Assembly (NCBI GenBank): GCA_004010935.1
Contig: CP026511.1
Span: 2,108,001-2,172,000 of the forward strand
Direction of reading: 5' to 3'
From: Pseudomonadaceae bacterium SI-3
GTDB taxonomy: Bacteria; Pseudomonadota; Gammaproteobacteria; Pseudomonadales; Pseudomonadaceae
DNA: 64,000 nt
The stretch's first letter is position 1; each line of letters starts with the position of its first letter. The notes beneath the pieces were generated by a model. The model was given only the letters and a program-made list of their open reading frames with translations. It ran no database searches and was not told the origin of the DNA. Shown here piece after piece: positions 11,129 through 43,151 of the stretch. The position numbers and the translations under genes are program-made.

Positions 11129-11407
11129 TCAGTCGCGGTAGAACACCTGCACGAGGTGATAACCGAACTGGCTTTTGATTGGACCATGCACTTCACGCAG
11201 CGGCTTTTTGAAAATCACCTGATCGATGCTGCGCACCATTTGCCCCGGTCGAACTTCGCCTAGATCACCGCCTTTCTTGCCCGACGGGCAGGTCGAAAAC
11301 TTCCTTGCTAGCACATCGAAGGCTTCGCCGTTGGCGATGCGCTTTTTCAGCTGCGCGGCTTCAGCTTCGGTCTTGACCAGGATGTGGCGGGCCATGGCTT
11401 TGGGCAT
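11129..11407 (-). CDS. ppiC: Peptidyl-prolyl cis-trans isomerase PpiC (parvulin)
   Basis: A 92-residue single-domain parvulin that catalyses proline isomerisation in the cytoplasm; there is no signal peptide. Family motifs are present in order: ARHILVK at the start, FSTCPSGKKGGDLGEVRPGQM in the middle and VHGPIKSQFGYHLVQV at the end. The length is that of stand-alone PpiC. The start at 11407 has GGAG seven bases upstream; the second Met (11395) is the alternative. It converges on zapE with only three bases between stop codons. Confidence 0.92.
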   Translation of the reverse strand: MPKAMARHILVKTEAEAAQLKKRIANGEAFDVLARKFSTCPSGKKGGDLGEVRPGQMVRSIDQVIFKKPLREVHGPIKSQFGYHLVQVFYRD

Positions 11408-11530
11408 TGTGAATCTCCTCGGATGCGGCGGCGATTGTAGTCATCCAGCCCGGGAAACCGAAGCGGGAATCGAATGGGATCGACCTTTGGTCTGCAAACA
11501 AACCCGACGAACGGTGTTTATGGTTGCTAT

Positions 11531-11546
11531 ATGTTAGCGCTACCAT
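11531..11546. promoter_or_regulatory. Probable GntR operator upstream of the gluconokinase-DctQ gene
   Basis: ATGTTAGCGCTACCAT is a 16-bp palindrome with one mismatched pair around the core TAGCGCTA. It resembles the ATGTTA-N4-TAACAT operators of E. coli GntR, a LacI-family protein, and carries the TAGCGCT core I recall for Pseudomonas GntR. It overlaps a possible -10 (TATATG, 11528-11533), 49 bases before the chosen start, a position fit for repression. Confidence 0.7.
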
Positions 11547-11594
11547 CCGGTCCACAAACATAATGTGGCACAACGATGCCGCCGGAGACCGACA

Positions 11595-12800
11595 GTGGAT
11601 TACCACTCCCACAGCGAATTTCCCGCAAATCGCCGCGCATTGGTGGTCATGGGCGTCAGTGGTTCGGGCAAGACCGAAACCAGCCATGCCGTGGCTGATG
11701 CACTGGGCTTTCGACACATCGAAGCCGATCATTTCCATCCCGAAGAAAACGTTGCGCGCATGCGTGCCGGCACGCCTTTGTCGGATGCCGACCGGGTCGA
11801 GTGGCTGCAAAGGCTCGTCATCGAAATGCAGCGTGCCATCGACGACGACGTTGGCTTCGTTCTCGCCTGTTCTGCCCTGAAGCGCCGTTACCGCGACCTG
11901 TTGCGCGACGCCGTGCCTGGCCTGTGCTTTGCGCATCTTTCCATCGATTACGACACGGCTATCCAGCGCGTTGGTGGGCGGGCCGGTCATTTCATGCCGA
12001 TTTCGCTGGTGGACAGCCAGTTCGCGACGCTCGAGTCGCCGGCAGGCGAGCCCCACGTGCTTGTGGTCGATGCCAGCCAGCCGCGAGAGCAGGTTCTGAA
12101 CGAGATCACCCGCTGGATGAATCAGGACAGCGGCTTGGCTATTAATGCCAAGGAAGACCTTTCCGCGGCTCCGCTTGATAGCGCTAACAAGCGCGGCGGC
12201 GCGCACGGCAGTCAGCGCAGTAGCGAGCCTGCCAAGATGGTGGATAGTCAGGACGTCGAGCCCAAGGGCGCCGAGCTGACTACTCAGCCGATCTACGGCG
12301 GCAAGTTCGCTCAAGGTTTCGACCGGATCACTGACTGGCTGATGGCAGCGCTGCTGGCCTTCATGGTCATCGTGGTGTTCAGCAGTGTGGTCTTGCGCTA
12401 TGCCTTCGGTACTGGTTGGACGGGCGCAGAAGAGCTCTCGAGGCTGGCCTTCGTCTGGCTGGTGTTCGTCGGTGTGGCTTCGAGCATGCGCCGAGGCGAG
12501 CTGATGGCGTTCAGCATGATTCGTGACCGGTTTCCCCATCTGCTCCGCCGCTTGGTGGACTCGGTCAGCTGGATCATGGTCGCAGTGGCCAGTGCGTTGG
12601 CCGCAATGGGCGGATGGAATCAGATGCAGTTCGGCTGGACCATCAACAGCCCGGTGGTGGGGTATCCGCTGGCCGTGGCCATGGTTCCGGTTGCGGCCAG
12701 CATGGTCGCTCTCGCCGTCCTTGCGCTGATCCAGCTGGTGAATGTCTGGCGCCGACAGCCGCCGTTACCCATCGCCGAAGCCAACGTAACGGCCGATTGA
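11595..12800 (+). CDS. Fusion of GntK-type gluconokinase and TRAP small permease subunit (DctQ)
   Basis: One 401-residue frame joins two normally separate proteins. Residues 13-175 are a thermoresistant-gluconokinase domain: Walker A GVSGSGKT at 20-27, then EADHFHPEENVARMRAGTPL and ACSALKRRYRDLLR, expected to phosphorylate gluconate to 6-phosphogluconate. Residues about 177-240 are a hydrophilic linker. Residues about 242-385 are a four-helix DctQ subunit (DRITDWLMAALLAF, TGAEELSRLAFVWLVFVG). The GTG start at 11595 has GGAG seven bases upstream; a GTG at 11565 is in frame but has no ribosome site. An internal ATG at 12237 could give a separate DctQ. It is followed by dctM, dctP and a repressor gene, which supports gluconate or a related sugar acid as substrate. 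Confidence 0.88.
   Translation: MDYHSHSEFPANRRALVVMGVSGSGKTETSHAVADALGFRHIEADHFHPEENVARMRAGTPLSDADRVEWLQRLVIEMQRAIDDDVGFVLACSALKRRYRDLLRDAVPGLCFAHLSIDYDTAIQRVGGRAGHFMPISLVDSQFATLESPAGEPHVLVVDASQPREQVLNEITRWMNQDSGLAINAKEDLSAAPLDSANKRGGAHGSQRSSEPAKMVDSQDVEPKGAELTTQPIYGGKFAQGFDRITDWLMAALLAFMVIVVFSSVVLRYAFGTGWTGAEELSRLAFVWLVFVGVASSMRRGELMAFSMIRDRFPHLLRRLVDSVSWIMVAVASALAAMGGWNQMQFGWTINSPVVGYPLAVAMVPVAASMVALAVLALIQLVNVWRRQPPLPIAEANVTAD
12172..12193. promoter_or_regulatory. Second operator-like palindrome inside the fusion-gene linker
   Basis: A 22-bp inverted repeat with a single mismatched pair (half-sites CGCTTG and CAAGCG around core TAGCGCTA). Its centre, TTGATAGCGCTAACAA (12175-12190), shares the pattern nTGnTAGCGCTAnCAn with the site at 11531-11546. 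It lies within codons of the linker between kinase and DctQ, about 45 bases before the internal ATG at 12237. Confidence 0.65.
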
Positions 12801-12808
12801 TCCCCGAT

Positions 12809-12816
12809 AACAACAA
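12809..12816 (+). promoter_or_regulatory. Candidate Hfq/Crc CA motif before dctM
   Basis: AACAACAA fits the AANAANAA motif bound by Hfq with Crc for catabolite repression of translation. It lies in the 43-base gap between the fusion gene and dctM, 28 bases before the dctM start. Confidence 0.5.
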
Positions 12817-12843
12817 GGGCATGCGCCCACCCGAGGTCCGTAC

Positions 12844-14121
12844 ATGACTGTCGTCGTCTTCTTATCGTCATTGTTTGGCTTCATGGCCTTCGGTATGCCG
12901 ATTGCCTTCGCGCTGATTCTTACCGGCGCGGTGCTGATGTGGTACCTGGATTTCTGGGATGTGCAGCTGCTGGCGCAGAACCTTCAGGCTGGTGCCGACA
13001 GCTTCCCGCTATTGGCAGTGCCATTCTTCATCCTGGCTGGCGAACTGATGAATGCGGGCGGCATCTCGCGCCGGATCATCAACATGGCGCAGGCCTACTT
13101 CGGCCATAAGCGCGGTGGCCTTGGCTACGTGGCCATTGCGGCGTCGGTCCTGCTGGCAAGCATGTCCGGCTCGGCCCTGGCGGATACCGCCGCGCTGGCA
13201 ACACTGTTGCTCCCAATGATGCGTGAGCGCGGTTACCCGCTGAGCTCGTCTTCGGGCTTGGTGGCCGCCGGCGGCATCATCGCGCCGATCATCCCGCCGT
13301 CGATGCCGTTCGTGATCTACGGCGTTGTCACCAATACCTCCATCAGCCAGCTGTTCCTTGCCGGTATGGTGCCGGGCCTGATCATGGGAGTAGGACTGGT
13401 GGTGGCCTGGACGATGATCGCCCGCCGGATCGATGAACCCCCACAGGAAAAAGCCAGCGGAGCTGAACGCCGTAAGGCACTGGTCGATGGCGCGGCTGCG
13501 CTGATGCTGCCGGTGATCATCGTGGGCGGCTTGCGTTTCGGTCTGTTCACGCCGACCGAGGCGGCTGTGGTGGCTGCTGTCTATGCATTGCTGGTGTCGA
13601 CGCTGCTGTACCGCGAACTGAGCTGGAACGGTGTGATTGAGGTGTTGACCCGCGCCAGCCGCACCACGGCGTCGGTCATGTTCCTTTGCGCAGCGGCAAT
13701 CGTCTCCGCCTACATGATTACGCTGGCCCAGTTGCCGGACGAGATCGCTTCGATGCTCGGCCCATTGGCCGAAGATCCCAAGCTGCTGATGGTCGCCATC
13801 ATGGTGTTGATGATCGCGATCGGCATGGTGCTCGACCTGACCCCGACCATCCTGATTCTCGGGCCGGTGTTGGCGCCGATTGCAGTGAAGGCCGGGATCA
13901 ACCCGGTGTACTTCGGCGTGATGTTCGTGCTGATCGGCTCGATCGGGCTGATCACGCCGCCCGTTGGCACGGTACTCAACGTTGTCGGCGGAATAGGGCG
14001 GCTGCGCATGGAAACGCTGGTGCGCGGTGTCATCCCGTTCTTCCTCATCTATCTGGCCATCGTTGTTCTGCTGATAGCAGTGCCGTCGATCATCACCGTG
14101 CCGTTGGAATGGCTGCGGTGA
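12844..14121 (+). CDS. TRAP transporter large permease subunit (DctM)
   Basis: The 425-residue protein is the 12-helix DctM channel subunit that uses the sodium gradient to move substrate delivered by the periplasmic DctP. Family motifs include PFFILAGELMNAGGISRRII near residue 60, ASMSGSALADTAAL near 115, GLFTPTEAAVVAAVYAL near 235, and ITPPVGTVLNVVGG near 375. The start at 12844 has GAGG eight bases upstream. It sits between the kinase-DctQ fusion and dctP in one operon. The substrate is inferred as gluconate or a similar sugar acid from the fused gluconokinase. Confidence 0.93.
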   Translation: MTVVVFLSSLFGFMAFGMPIAFALILTGAVLMWYLDFWDVQLLAQNLQAGADSFPLLAVPFFILAGELMNAGGISRRIINMAQAYFGHKRGGLGYVAIAASVLLASMSGSALADTAALATLLLPMMRERGYPLSSSSGLVAAGGIIAPIIPPSMPFVIYGVVTNTSISQLFLAGMVPGLIMGVGLVVAWTMIARRIDEPPQEKASGAERRKALVDGAAALMLPVIIVGGLRFGLFTPTEAAVVAAVYALLVSTLLYRELSWNGVIEVLTRASRTTASVMFLCAAAIVSAYMITLAQLPDEIASMLGPLAEDPKLLMVAIMVLMIAIGMVLDLTPTILILGPVLAPIAVKAGINPVYFGVMFVLIGSIGLITPPVGTVLNVVGGIGRLRMETLVRGVIPFFLIYLAIVVLLIAVPSIITVPLEWLR

Positions 14122-14164: not shown

Positions 14165-14177
14165 AAGGTAAGTGAAC

Positions 14178-15194
14178 ATGAAACGATTTCTCATCGCGGC
14201 CCTGGCCGCCACTACGCTTAGCAGCGCTATCACCGCAGTGACCGCTCAGGCCGCCGACGATATCCGGCCACGGATGATTCGCTTCGGCTACGGGCTCAAC
14301 GAAGACAGCAATCAGGGGCGCGCCGCGAAGCTGCTGGCCGAGGAGATCGCCAAGGCATCTGATGGCAAGCTCAAGGTTCGCACTTTCGGTTCTGCCAGCC
14401 TGGGGTCCGATGATCAGATGCAGAACGCGCTGATGGGCGGCGCGCAGGAAATGATGGTCGGCTCGACGGCCACCCTGGTCGGTGTTGCCGAAGAAATGGC
14501 GGTCTGGGACACGCCGTTCCTGTTCGAGAGCGAGAAGCAGGCCGACCACGTGCTGGATGGCCCGGTCGGTCAGAAGGTCATGGATGCGCTGGAAGAAAAG
14601 GGCCTCGTTGGCTTGGCGTATTGGGAAAACGGCTTCCGTAACCTGACCAACAACGTGCGTCCTGTCGAGAAGCTGGAAGACTTCGACGGCATCAAGCTGC
14701 GCGTGATGCCAAACCCCGTGTTCATCGATACCTTCAAGCTGATGGGCGCCAACGCTGTCCCGCTGCCGTTCTCCGAGCTGTTCACGGCACTGGAAACCAA
14801 GGCAGTCGACGGTCAGGAAAATCCCTATAACACCATCCTCTCGTCCAAGTTCTACGAGGTACAGAAGTACCTGAGCGTGACCAATCACGTGTACAGCCCA
14901 TGGATCGTCACGGCATCCAAGCGCTGGTGGGATGGCCTGTCGAAAACTGAGCAGGACATCATCATGAAGGCGGCGCAGACGGCTCGTGATTTCGAACGTG
15001 AGGACACTCGCGCCGAAGCCCGCGAGGCCCTGGCCAAGATCAAGGAGCAGGGTATGGAGGTGAACAAGGTCAGCCCGGAAGAGATCCAGCGCATGCGGGA
15101 ACAGGCTAAACCGGCCATCCAGACCGTCATCGATACGGTTGGCGAGCCGTTGTTCAACGAAGTACAGGCAGCGGTCGAGAAAGCCCCGAAGTAA
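14178..15194 (+). CDS. TRAP transporter periplasmic substrate-binding protein (DctP)
   Basis: The 338-residue protein starts MKRFLIAALAATTLSSAI, a signal peptide cleaved near AQAADD. DctP family landmarks are ENGFRNLTNN at about residue 150 and IKLRVMPNPVFIDTFKLMGA at about 170, whose Arg normally binds the substrate carboxylate, then LETKAVDGQENP. This ATG is preferred over a GTG six bases upstream because an AAGGT ribosome site is well spaced from it. It completes the DctQMP set with the fusion gene and dctM. A carboxylate substrate is expected; gluconate is inferred from the operon. Confidence 0.93.
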   Translation: MKRFLIAALAATTLSSAITAVTAQAADDIRPRMIRFGYGLNEDSNQGRAAKLLAEEIAKASDGKLKVRTFGSASLGSDDQMQNALMGGAQEMMVGSTATLVGVAEEMAVWDTPFLFESEKQADHVLDGPVGQKVMDALEEKGLVGLAYWENGFRNLTNNVRPVEKLEDFDGIKLRVMPNPVFIDTFKLMGANAVPLPFSELFTALETKAVDGQENPYNTILSSKFYEVQKYLSVTNHVYSPWIVTASKRWWDGLSKTEQDIIMKAAQTARDFEREDTRAEAREALAKIKEQGMEVNKVSPEEIQRMREQAKPAIQTVIDTVGEPLFNEVQAAVEKAPK

Positions 15195-15308: not shown

Positions 15309-16328
15309 ATGAGCTCTCGCCGTCGCCGTTCGCTGGAGCGGGCCACATTATCCGATGTGGCTCGCACTGCCGGTTGTTCGCTGATGTCCGCCTCGCGTGC
15401 GCTGTCGCAACCCGAACGGGTGTCGGACGCCTTGCGCGAGCGGGTGATGGCAGCGGTCAAAACCTTGGGTTACGTCCCGCACACGGCTGCGCGAAACCTG
15501 GCGAGCGCACGTTCGAATCTTGTCGCGGTGATCATTCCTTCATTGTCGAACGCAGTATTTGTCGACACCGTTGAAGCCATTCAGCGTGTGCTAATGCCGG
15601 CGGGCTACGAGCTGATGATCGGCGTCAGCCATTACCATCCCGAAGAAGACGAACGCCTGTTGCGTGCCTACCTCGCGCATCAACCGGCGGGGCTGCTGGT
15701 CACCGGCTTCGAGCGCAGCGATGCCGCGCGCGAAGTGCTTGGCAGCTACACCAGCCCGATCGTGACCTTGATGGAGCTGAGCGATGGCGAGGAAGAGTAC
15801 TGCGTCGGTTTTTCGCAGTTGGAAGCCGGTGCGGCCATGACCCGCAAGCTGCTCGAACGCGGCTATCGCAACATCGCGTTTGCGGCCGCGCAACTTGACC
15901 CCCGAACCTTGCAACGTGCCGAAGGTTATCGGCAGGTCATGCGCGCGGCCTCGCGTTACGATGCCGCACTTGAGGTGCTCACACCGCAGGTTTCATCCAT
16001 CGGGCTGGGCGCCGAGTTGCTCGATCGGTTACTGGCGCAGCATCCAGAAATCGATGCGATTTTCTTCAACAACGATGACTTGGCGTTGGGCGCACTGTTT
16101 CGTGCTCGCCAGCTGAACTTGGCCGTGCCGGAGCGGCTGGCGGTTGCCGGGTTCAACGACTTGCCGGCCGCGGCCTGGATGCACCCGGCGCTGACCACGG
16201 TCCGCACCATCCGCGGCGAGATTGGCAAGCTGGCTGGGCAAATGCTGTTGAGCCTGATGCGCGGCGAGTCGCCACCGCAGCGGCGTATCGATGTAGGTTT
16301 TGAAGTGGTGATGCGCGAAAGCGCATGA
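15309..16328 (+). CDS. gntR: LacI-family transcriptional regulator, GntR-like gluconate repressor
   Basis: A 339-residue repressor with an N-terminal LacI helix-turn-helix (ATLSDVARTAGCSLMSASRA, residues 12-31) and hinge (YVPHTAARNLASARSNLVAV), followed by a periplasmic-binding-like ligand domain with IDAIFFNNDDLALGALF and GFNDLPAAAWMHPALTTVR. In gluconate systems this protein represses uptake and kinase genes until gluconate or a derivative binds. It is the last gene of the locus on the same strand, separated from dctP by a long hairpin, with a possible -10 TATAGAAT at 15273. The two TAGCGCTA palindromes at 11531 and 12172 are its probable targets. The gluconate role is an inference from context. 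Confidence 0.85.
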   Translation: MSSRRRRSLERATLSDVARTAGCSLMSASRALSQPERVSDALRERVMAAVKTLGYVPHTAARNLASARSNLVAVIIPSLSNAVFVDTVEAIQRVLMPAGYELMIGVSHYHPEEDERLLRAYLAHQPAGLLVTGFERSDAAREVLGSYTSPIVTLMELSDGEEEYCVGFSQLEAGAAMTRKLLERGYRNIAFAAAQLDPRTLQRAEGYRQVMRAASRYDAALEVLTPQVSSIGLGAELLDRLLAQHPEIDAIFFNNDDLALGALFRARQLNLAVPERLAVAGFNDLPAAAWMHPALTTVRTIRGEIGKLAGQMLLSLMRGESPPQRRIDVGFEVVMRESA

Positions 16329-18986: not shown

Positions 18987-20510
18987 TCACGGCGCAACCG
19001 TCGTCAGACCCGGCGGTGTGTTCTGACCGTAGGTGCTGCTAACCAGTCCTCGATACCGCCGGTAGGCCCGTTCATAGCTCTGAACTGCGCTGGGTTCAGG
19101 CTCGACCGCGGATGCCTCGTCAATACTGACGCAGCGCTCGCAAAGGGCTGCGAGGCTGGCATGCGAATCGCTCTGTCTCGCATGGCACCATGCAGCCTGA
19201 ATTGCACCGCCGAGCGCGGCGGCCTCGCTATGGGTGGTACAGACCACCGGTGTCGCCATCATGTCGGCAACCATCTGCCGCCACTGCGGACTCTGCGCGC
19301 CGCCGCCAATAAGTTGGATGCGTTCGCTGCGAATCCCGCTTTCCCGCAACAGATCCAACCCATAGCGCAGGCCAAAGGTTACGCCCTCGACCACGGCACG
19401 ACAGAGATTGGCCCGAGTCAGGTTGTCTGCAGTCAGGCCGTGCAGGCTGGCTGTGGCCTGGGGCAGGGCAGGCACGCGCTCGCCATTCAGGAATGGCAGC
19501 AGGGTGACGCCTTCGGCTCCAATCGGCGCCTGCGCCACCAGAACATTGAATTGATCGAGGTCCAGCTGGAGCAGATCGCGAATGGCGCCGTTCGCGTTGG
19601 TCAGGTTCATGGTGCAGATCAGTGGCAACCAGCCGCCGCTGGACGAGCAGAAGGTGGCGACTGAGGGCTGCGGGCTGATCCGGGGTTCTTCTGCGAATGC
19701 GTACAAGGTGCCGGAGGTGCCGAGGCTCATGGTGATCGCGCCTGGGCTGATATTGCCGGTGCCTATAGCGCCCATCATGTTGTCGCCGCCGCCGCTGGCC
19801 ACGAGCGCCTGAGGATTCAGGCCCAGCTGGGCGGCCAGTTCAGGGTGTATTCGCCCGGCCGGCTGGTAGGGCTCGATCAGCTCGGGCAGTGCGGCTTCGA
19901 GCCGGCCCGTTGGATCGATCTGGCGCAGAATGGTGTAATCCCATTGCCGGCAGCGGACATTGAAATAACCCGTCCCTGACGCGTCGCCGTATTCGCTGGT
20001 ACAGCGTCCGGTCAGCCAGTAGTTGAGGTAGTCGTGGGGCAGCAGGATATGGGCGATGCGTTCGAACAGTTCGGCATGCTGCTCCTTCATCCACAAGAGT
20101 TTGGACACTGTGTAGCCAGGGGCGATGACGACCCCGAGGCGTTGCAGCGAGCCCTGTTCGCCGCCCAGCCAATCGAGGAGCCGCTGGTTCTCCTTGGCAG
20201 ACTCCGTGTCGCACCAGAGCTTGGCCGGGCGCAACACCTGACCGTCTGCATCGAGCGTCACAAGGCCATGCTGCTGTCCGGAAACACCGATGCCCAGCAC
20301 GGCGCTGCCGTCCACCCCCGCCTCGGTCAGCGCTGCTGCAGTGGCGGTCGCGAAGGCAGAGGTCCATTGCTCGGTACCCTGTTCGCGACGACCGTTTGGG
20401 CCACTGATGAGCACATGACTGGCCGAGCCCTGGCCCAGTACTCGACCGCTGGCGGCGTCGAGCAGCAGTGCCTTAGTTCCCTGGGTGCCGCAATCGATAC
20501 CTAAGAACAT
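18987..20510 (-). CDS. mtlY: Xylulokinase (FGGY family), mannitol/arabitol cluster
   Basis: A 507-residue FGGY carbohydrate kinase. It begins MFLGIDCGTQGTKALLLDAA (first ATP-binding element), has GVSGQQHGLVTLD near residue 95, and the second lobe shows SLGTSGTLYAFAE near 260 and LIGGGAQSPQWRQMVADMMA near 400. It would phosphorylate D-xylulose, the product of arabitol oxidation by the neighbouring mannitol dehydrogenase, giving xylulose-5-phosphate. The start has a GGAGG site. It is the last gene of the mtl operon, ten bases after mtlD, which matches the MtlY position in Pseudomonas mannitol operons. Confidence 0.93.
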   Translation of the reverse strand: MFLGIDCGTQGTKALLLDAASGRVLGQGSASHVLISGPNGRREQGTEQWTSAFATATAAALTEAGVDGSAVLGIGVSGQQHGLVTLDADGQVLRPAKLWCDTESAKENQRLLDWLGGEQGSLQRLGVVIAPGYTVSKLLWMKEQHAELFERIAHILLPHDYLNYWLTGRCTSEYGDASGTGYFNVRCRQWDYTILRQIDPTGRLEAALPELIEPYQPAGRIHPELAAQLGLNPQALVASGGGDNMMGAIGTGNISPGAITMSLGTSGTLYAFAEEPRISPQPSVATFCSSSGGWLPLICTMNLTNANGAIRDLLQLDLDQFNVLVAQAPIGAEGVTLLPFLNGERVPALPQATASLHGLTADNLTRANLCRAVVEGVTFGLRYGLDLLRESGIRSERIQLIGGGAQSPQWRQMVADMMATPVVCTTHSEAAALGGAIQAAWCHARQSDSHASLAALCERCVSIDEASAVEPEPSAVQSYERAYRRYRGLVSSTYGQNTPPGLTTVAP

Positions 20511-42685: not shown

Positions 42686-43151
42686 CGGTGAGCCTCCCAC
42701 GCAGCCTGTCGATCGTCATCTGGGTCAGGCGTATAAGCATCATCAGCGCCAGCAGTGGCAGCCAGACCACATACCACCAGTTCGGCAGCCCCAGGCCGGG
42801 AGACTCGGATTCCCACTGGTATTCCTCCAGCGCGAACTGCCCGCCGTACCAGAGGACCATACCGAGCACCAATACGCTGGCCAGCCACTGCAACAGGATC
42901 AGCGGCGTACGCAGGCGCGGAAACATCCGCTCGGCAAAGCCTATGCGGATGTGGCGGTTACTGCGCATGGCCACCGAGGCGCCGGCGAAGGTGAGAATCA
43001 CAAGGAGAAAAACGGAAATTTCTTCGGTAAAGGCGAAGGAGGCATCGGTGAAATAGCGCACTACCACGTTGGCCAGGCTGATCAGGCTGATGATCACCAG
43101 CGCTAGGGTAGCCAGCACGCGCTCAAGGCGCGCGTCCTGTCGATTGTTCAT
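42675..43151 (-). CDS. TRAP transporter small permease subunit (DctQ)
   Basis: A 158-residue four-helix membrane protein of the DctQ family, with LISLANVVVRYFTDASFAFT, EEISVFLLVILTFAGASVAM and RSNRHIRIGFAERMFPRLRT. It supports the DctM channel. It is a normal stand-alone DctQ, in contrast to the kinase fusion at 11595. It lies 48 bases after dctP and overlaps dctM. Confidence 0.9.
   Translation of the reverse strand: MNNRQDARLERVLATLALVIISLISLANVVVRYFTDASFAFTEEISVFLLVILTFAGASVAMRSNRHIRIGFAERMFPRLRTPLILLQWLASVLVLGMVLWYGGQFALEEYQWESESPGLGLPNWWYVVWLPLLALMMLIRLTQMTIDRLRGRLTDEP

Follow-up and report, generated by a model that had tools for sequence, protein, structure and literature searches.

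A widespread gluconokinase-DctQ fusion in the Pseudomonadaceae with a predicted GntR-type operator inside its interdomain linker

Gluconokinases of the GntK/IdnK type are normally separate, soluble enzymes, and TRAP import followed by a kinase runs on an ion gradient and ATP. An intragenic operator of a LacI-family repressor is exemplified by lac O2, which lies in lacZ. The Pseudomonas gntR-gntK-gntP systems use a GntP transporter, keep kinase and transporter as separate genes, have a divergent gntR and carry their second operator in an intergenic position. In the available text of work on P. aeruginosa, TAGCGCT is given as the GntR operator core and gluconate or 6-phosphogluconate as the GntR effectors (PMC5902321), and a report on P. 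plecoglossicida, also available in part, describes GntR-protected sites with the core AGCGCT (PMC12195362). The TRAP fusions named in the accessible part of a review join DctQ to DctM (PMC5812351).

The locus analyzed here shares with the Pseudomonas systems the kinase family, a LacI-type GntR and the core AGCGCT both at gntK and at the junction between gntK and the transporter, and, as in TRAP DctPQM systems, all three transporter subunits are encoded in one cluster. It differs in the partner of DctQ, here a catabolic kinase, whereas the TRAP fusions named in that review join one transporter part to another; compared to other gluconokinases, the kinase here belongs to a membrane protein, of which it makes up the N-terminal half. 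As for lac O2, the second operator lies within the first gene of the operon, but here it is located in an interdomain linker and is apparently of intergenic descent. The fusion and its linker operator combine known parts, and we found no description of either in the literature searched, which was seen partly in excerpt and left subscription papers mostly outside its scope. The features below are numbered from the first letter of the window, that is, the whole 64,000-nucleotide stretch of DNA analyzed.

11532 to 11545, no strand assigned: predicted upstream GntR-type operator TGTTAGCGCTACCA, present before the kinase in 72/72 fusions and a perfect match to TGNTAGCGCTANCA
11595 to 12800, plus strand: fused gluconokinase-DctQ gene, 401 aa, GTG start (TIGR01313, PF04290, relatives)
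11634 to 12125, plus strand: GntK/IdnK-type gluconokinase domain, residues 14 to 177, Walker A at 11649 to 11672 (TIGR01313, solved kinases)
12126 to 12302, plus strand: hydrophilic linker, predicted to be disordered (pLDDT <50 over residues 180 to 232; pN/pS)
12176 to 12189, no strand assigned: predicted GntR-type operator in the linker, palindrome TGATAGCGCTAACA, read as D-S-A-N
12303 to 12752, plus strand: DctQ domain, TRAP small membrane subunit (PF04290), with helices at residues 237 to 271, 278 to 299, 316 to 349 and 356 to 386 in the predicted model
12844 to 14121, plus strand: dctM, TRAP large membrane subunit (PF06808, TIGR00786)
14172 to 15194, plus strand: dctP, TRAP solute-binding protein (PF03480, TIGR00787), closest solved relative 7bbr (CxaP, by our assignment)
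15309 to 16328, plus strand: gntR, LacI-family gluconate repressor (NF052440, 478.2 bits; cut-off 400)

The initial annotation had described a complete GntK-type kinase and a complete DctQ domain in one 401-residue frame followed by dctM and dctP, and our analysis confirmed this description. Positions 11595 to 12800 form a single open frame of 401 codons, with a GTG start and a GGAG ribosome site (11584 to 11587) ending seven bases 5' of it; an alternative, longer GTG start at 11565 would give 411 aa. On the 411-aa version, TIGR01313 (GntK/IdnK gluconokinase) matched residues 26 to 185 with 177.8 bits (cut-off 113.75) and PF04290 (DctQ) residues 267 to 397 with 82 bits (cut-off 28.3). The Walker A motif MGVSGSGK occupies residues 19 to 26 of the 401-aa protein. 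Sequence comparison matched the kinase half to the solved kinases 4eun, 3t61 and 1knq, with which it shares the complete domain, the Walker A motif and the predicted fold, while the match of the DctQ half to solved TRAP permeases was weak. In the predicted model, the kinase (residues 10 to 178) was confident and the DctQ helices lay between residues 237 and 386; the first ten Foldseek rows for this model were a sugar kinase and gluconate kinases. PF04290, PF06808 and PF03480 were all over cut-off in adjacent genes, giving a complete set of TRAP subunits. The opposite strand of the fusion holds a 392-codon frame (11361 to 12539, minus), probably a codon-bias shadow of a high-GC gene.

Judging from gene content and homology, the substrate of the importer is likely gluconate. 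A profile search of the genome identified the fusion as its only GntK/IdnK-type gluconokinase, two FGGY kinases matched the FGGY-type gluconokinase far below cut-off in the whole genome, and the profile search for GntP found no permease of this family in the genome. Some membrane PQQ dehydrogenases turn glucose into gluconate in the periplasm, and the genome has three matches to this family over cut-off, one of them partial, which suggests a periplasmic source of gluconate. The solved protein closest to DctP is 7bbr, which we take to be CxaP of Advenella, with 163 identical residues out of 330 aligned (49%). In the accessible text, 7BBR is named as a sugar-acid binder (PMC11668362) and CxaP is reported to take xylonate, fuconate, galactonate and gluconate, and the same parts of both papers mention no kinase fusion for CxaP (PMC12076931; PMC11668362). 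One of the two FGGY kinases is the xylulokinase gene at 18987 to 20510, minus strand (XylB equivalog, 595.8 bits; cut-off 380.25). A second DctQ domain in the window (42699 to 43088, minus) belongs to another TRAP system, DctQ having eight matches genome-wide, and a Defence-system library gave no match.

The initial annotation had also suggested counting the architecture in protein databases. A search over 5.8 billion proteins returned 348 relatives; among the 120 listed, PF04290 was present in all 120, and MGVSGxGK together with the DctQ motif RRGE, i.e., kinase plus DctQ, in 118. NCBI and UniRef annotate some relatives as "gluconokinase" or "Multifunctional fusion protein". Within the family, 301/398 genomes matched the query at 1e-20, and at least 72/398 carry an intact fusion (counted by hand among matches listed down to about E 3e-47). 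Each of these 72 was re-read as one open frame; 45 belong to the genus of the window and 2, 3 and 22 to three other genera. One further family genome, G241, carries a broken fusion frame. The fusion was also found in thirty named genome contigs partly overlapping the 72; that scan covered one strand only and missed fusions on the other, and the family set was later re-read instead. Fusions occur in Stutzerimonas and related Pseudomonas. With a more distant fusion (L057) as query, 205 matches were obtained; among those listed, DctQ was present in all 120, and the named ones were Pseudomonas, Stutzerimonas or carried broad Pseudomonadaceae or Pseudomonadota labels. At the level of the class, 33 of 369 sampled genomes matched the fusion alignment A1 at 1e-30, and in this sample no match extended beyond the kinase half except in the window's own genome. 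Five class matches were read: the long frames of four (L169, L171, L174, L175) owe their extra length to stop-free sequence before the kinase motif, and in the fifth (L178) no frame with a kinase motif was found.

The possibility of an assembly error, raised at the outset, was rejected, the same intact frame being present in 72 species genomes and many metagenome contigs, and the at least 72 intact fusions in the family exclude chance as the cause of the frame. It had been conceded that a fusion shared by many relatives would be real but not new. Indeed, the fusion is real, but it is common among relatives and already has database entries, so that as an annotation it is not novel.

Perfect matches to TGNTAGCGCTANCA occur only twice in the whole 4.84-Mb genome, at the upstream site and at the linker site. 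Allowing up to one mismatch gave 11 genome hits against 16 for a backwards control, so that only the perfect matches are informative. A looser scan of the 64-kb window returned the same two sites, but this count was reached in 12/100 shuffles and on its own proves little. Both sites match the published core TAGCGCT within a palindrome. By eye, TGATAGCGCTAACA agrees in this core but does not match the full published consensus (AC-N1-AAG-N1-TAGCGCT or AG-N2-AGCGCT-N-TCT), from which its outer arms differ. We regard both as putative GntR-binding sites. The linker operator was present in 67/72 fusions (42 perfect, 25 with one mismatch), always in the same reading phase (phase 2), compared to three hits with two mismatches each in the remaining 66 kb of the 72 fused frames. 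Both operators were present in 30/30 of the named contigs. Their spacing ranges from 629 to 664 bp across fusions, no common helical phase was seen across the 72, and the spacing neither supports nor excludes looping. The linker had at first been read as a hydrophilic spacer, which it is, but the operator-like site inside it had been missed.

In the 67 fusions with a linker operator, to which the codon counts at DSAN/T refer, serine is encoded by AGC in 67/67, alanine by the rare codon GCT in 67/67 (background 0.10), aspartate by GAT in 64/65 and asparagine by AAC in 45/45. The peptide exists in two versions, with N or T as the last residue, and the palindrome is intact in both. Among 179 conserved four- or six-fold codon columns, S196 and A197 rank 1 and 2. 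In 15 of the 45 same-genus fusions, pS was 0.116 at the operator codons (residues 194 to 199), whereas it reached 0.557 for the remaining linker codons, 0.558 for the kinase and 0.529 for DctQ. For the same 15 fusions, pN/pS of the linker without the operator codons was 0.54, against 0.12 for the kinase and 0.11 for DctQ. The linker site is thus likely maintained by selection on the DNA rather than on the peptide. Five of the 72 fusions (L053, L057, L071, L081 and L082) are without it and still have an intact frame; the linker operator is therefore dispensable, and these five suggest that the fused protein is retained for its own sake.

For comparison, we read eight loci in which gntK is unfused and gntR divergent (L072 to L079); their GntRs are 49 to 51% identical to that of the window. 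In five of them (L072 to L076), the TGA stop of the kinase is followed two bases later by AGACAGCGCTACCC, which has three mismatches to the fusion operator consensus, an intact AGCGCT core and the same phase as the linker operator; read through the kinase stop, it gives R-D-S-A-T. L077 has a related site 13 bases past the stop, and L078 and L079 have no operator-like site near it. The gene 3' of the kinase is GntP (PF02447) in all three loci tested (L072, L075, L077). Given the post-stop site in five of eight unfused loci, the linker seems to be a former intergenic control region turned coding. The simplest reading would be that, in a gntK-operator-transporter arrangement, loss of the kinase stop merged the genes into one; we infer the order of events, in which TRAP genes may have taken the place of gntP before the fusion. 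L108, which comes from another family within the order, is an unfused gluconate-type TRAP operon with a divergent gntR, overlapping gntK (175 aa) and dctQ (185 aa), dctM and dctP. Its kinase start is overlapped by the operator-like TGTTAGCGCTAACA, and no such site lies between gntK and dctQ. Nine DctM loci outside the family or present as second copies were read in the order (L108 to L116), and among them a GntK-type kinase adjoins only that of L108.

A kinase tree of 80 rows, rooted on L108 as a long-branched outgroup and leaving out L040 and L072 to L076 (five of the eight unfused kinases), in which the motif failed, needs three changes of the label "fused". This fits one gain followed by two later events, a kinase-only clade and one broken copy. 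Since the support of the clade of fused and derived kinases (93/98) falls just under the tool's mark (95/80), a single origin in the Pseudomonadaceae is likely but not proved. The kinase-only loci L088, L089 and L090 (genomes G217, G164 and G237, same genus) are nested inside the fusion clade, and because of this nesting their lineage probably lost the transporter. The 7-kb stretches around them contain neither TRAP genes nor the operator. They share neighbors with the window's fusion: zapE (L088, L089), a LysR-type gene and an acyl-CoA dehydrogenase-like gene. The only broken copy seen is L091 (genome G241): a stop closes its kinase frame shortly past the linker operator, and a TTG of the DctQ frame overlaps this stop. 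Either a genuine split or a sequencing error might explain it. Going by these sequences, the fusion is not essential, and the frame break and the transporter loss represent natural controls.

Taken as a whole, we consider it probable that the locus encodes a bifunctional, tethered kinase-importer of single origin with a retained operator. Gluconate formed in the periplasm would be captured by DctP, pass inward through DctQM and be converted to 6-phosphogluconate by the kinase, held through the linker on the cytoplasmic N terminus of DctQ, with a kinase:transporter stoichiometry set at 1:1. During its origin, a kinase stop next to a GntR operator would have been lost, translation then running through the operator into DctQ. 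The linker operator and the upstream site together would still let GntR repress the operon, and gluconate or 6-phosphogluconate would free GntR from them. According to the accessible part of one source, both ends of TRAP Q subunits are cytoplasmic (PMC9971032), so the kinase is expected at the inner face, where the inward-facing cavity opens. The earlier proposal of a kinase tethered there is well supported by this topology, by the only GntK/IdnK-type kinase of the genome being the fused one and by the absence of GntP.

Walker A and the first DctQ helix are separated by 13 different lengths across the 72 fusions, with differences of up to 35 residues. Tight channelling through a fixed channel is disfavored by this hypervariable linker, which is also predicted to be disordered; judging from the model, a docked channel would be a poorer fit to it than a kinase on a string, locally concentrated and at fixed stoichiometry. 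The initial interpretation was supported in part: the fusion is real, under coding constraint and in a gluconate-type setting. As first proposed, import may be vectorial, PTS-like or irreversible: uptake and phosphorylation would be physically coupled as in the PTS, if the tethering reading is right, but here phosphorylation would come after import and the energy from an ion gradient and ATP. No PTS EI, HPr or EII domains were found when the fusion and its neighbors, six proteins of the window in all, were scanned with Pfam. Gluconokinase of Escherichia coli is a dimer, and if the same holds here, the fusion would join two transporters. More tentatively, and with clearly less confidence than an even chance would warrant, the roughly 60 linker codons may do two jobs, tethering the kinase and serving as the distal operator in a loop through which GntR represses; the fusion's own substrate and product would then release GntR at both sites, and the former intergenic operator would explain the fusion point. 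With a kinase on DctQ, one could ask directly whether uptake becomes faster or committed once an enzyme is tethered to a secondary importer. The linker, for its part, clearly illustrates how a DNA site that is likely regulatory can be preserved within coding sequence, and it offers a plausible route from two genes to one.

Tethering might also bring no channelling at all: the fusion would then only fix the amounts of kinase and transporter and place them under joint control, the kinase being a freely moving domain on a string. We give this almost an even chance; it overlaps our main explanation and differs solely in the benefit of tethering. The disordered, hypervariable linker fits it, as do the unfused operon of L108 and the kinase-only loci persisting in three same-genus genomes. 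Yet an operon alone gives joint control, and the frame has stayed intact in 72 genomes despite many changes in linker length, against one broken. It appears improbable that kinase and transporter mainly handle one or more other sugar acids instead of gluconate. CxaP, to judge from the part of the report available, binds several, with KD values of 1.9 to 8.0 µM (PMC11668362), and both the fusion and DctM match 2,3-diketo-L-gulonate transporter models below cut-off; on the other hand, the gluconokinase model and the GntR equivalog both score above cut-off, in a genome with neither GntP nor a second gluconokinase over cut-off. Far less credible still is that the linker site is a conserved DSAN peptide and no DNA site. 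The protein alignment does show D195 and A197 as nearly invariant, but the codons are nearly frozen too, including the rare GCT, the N and T versions both keep the palindrome, S196 and A197 head the conserved columns, and the equivalent 14-mer pattern is also found upstream of the gene.

We also consider it unlikely that two proteins arise from the fused frame, whether through proteolysis, a start within the linker or a promoter internal to the gene at the linker operator. In its favor, the comparable P. plecoglossicida site lies between gntK and gntP, in what is assigned as the gntP promoter region, according to the accessible text (PMC12195362), and the L091 break places a TTG of the DctQ frame over the kinase stop. 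Additionally, a CTTTC element (12159 to 12163 and equivalents), which precedes the first DSAN codon by 18 nt, is nearly frozen in many fusions, its leucine being encoded by CTT in 38/39 (background 0.03), and could be part of an internal promoter. Against it, an in-frame ATG, GTG or TTG occurs in the linker of 47/72 fusions, accompanied by a ribosome-site-like sequence in only 8/72, the commonest start position (a TTG) is shared by 22/72, and no conserved linker start with a ribosome site for a separate DctQ exists across the 72. A scan of 11300 to 12900 found no sigma-70-like site, but it found none at the upstream promoter either and is thus uninformative. As a further detail of the linker DNA, L052, L054, L056 and some relatives (genus g15) have an extra partial operator, GATAGC or ATAGCGCT, about 12 to 18 nt upstream of the linker operator.
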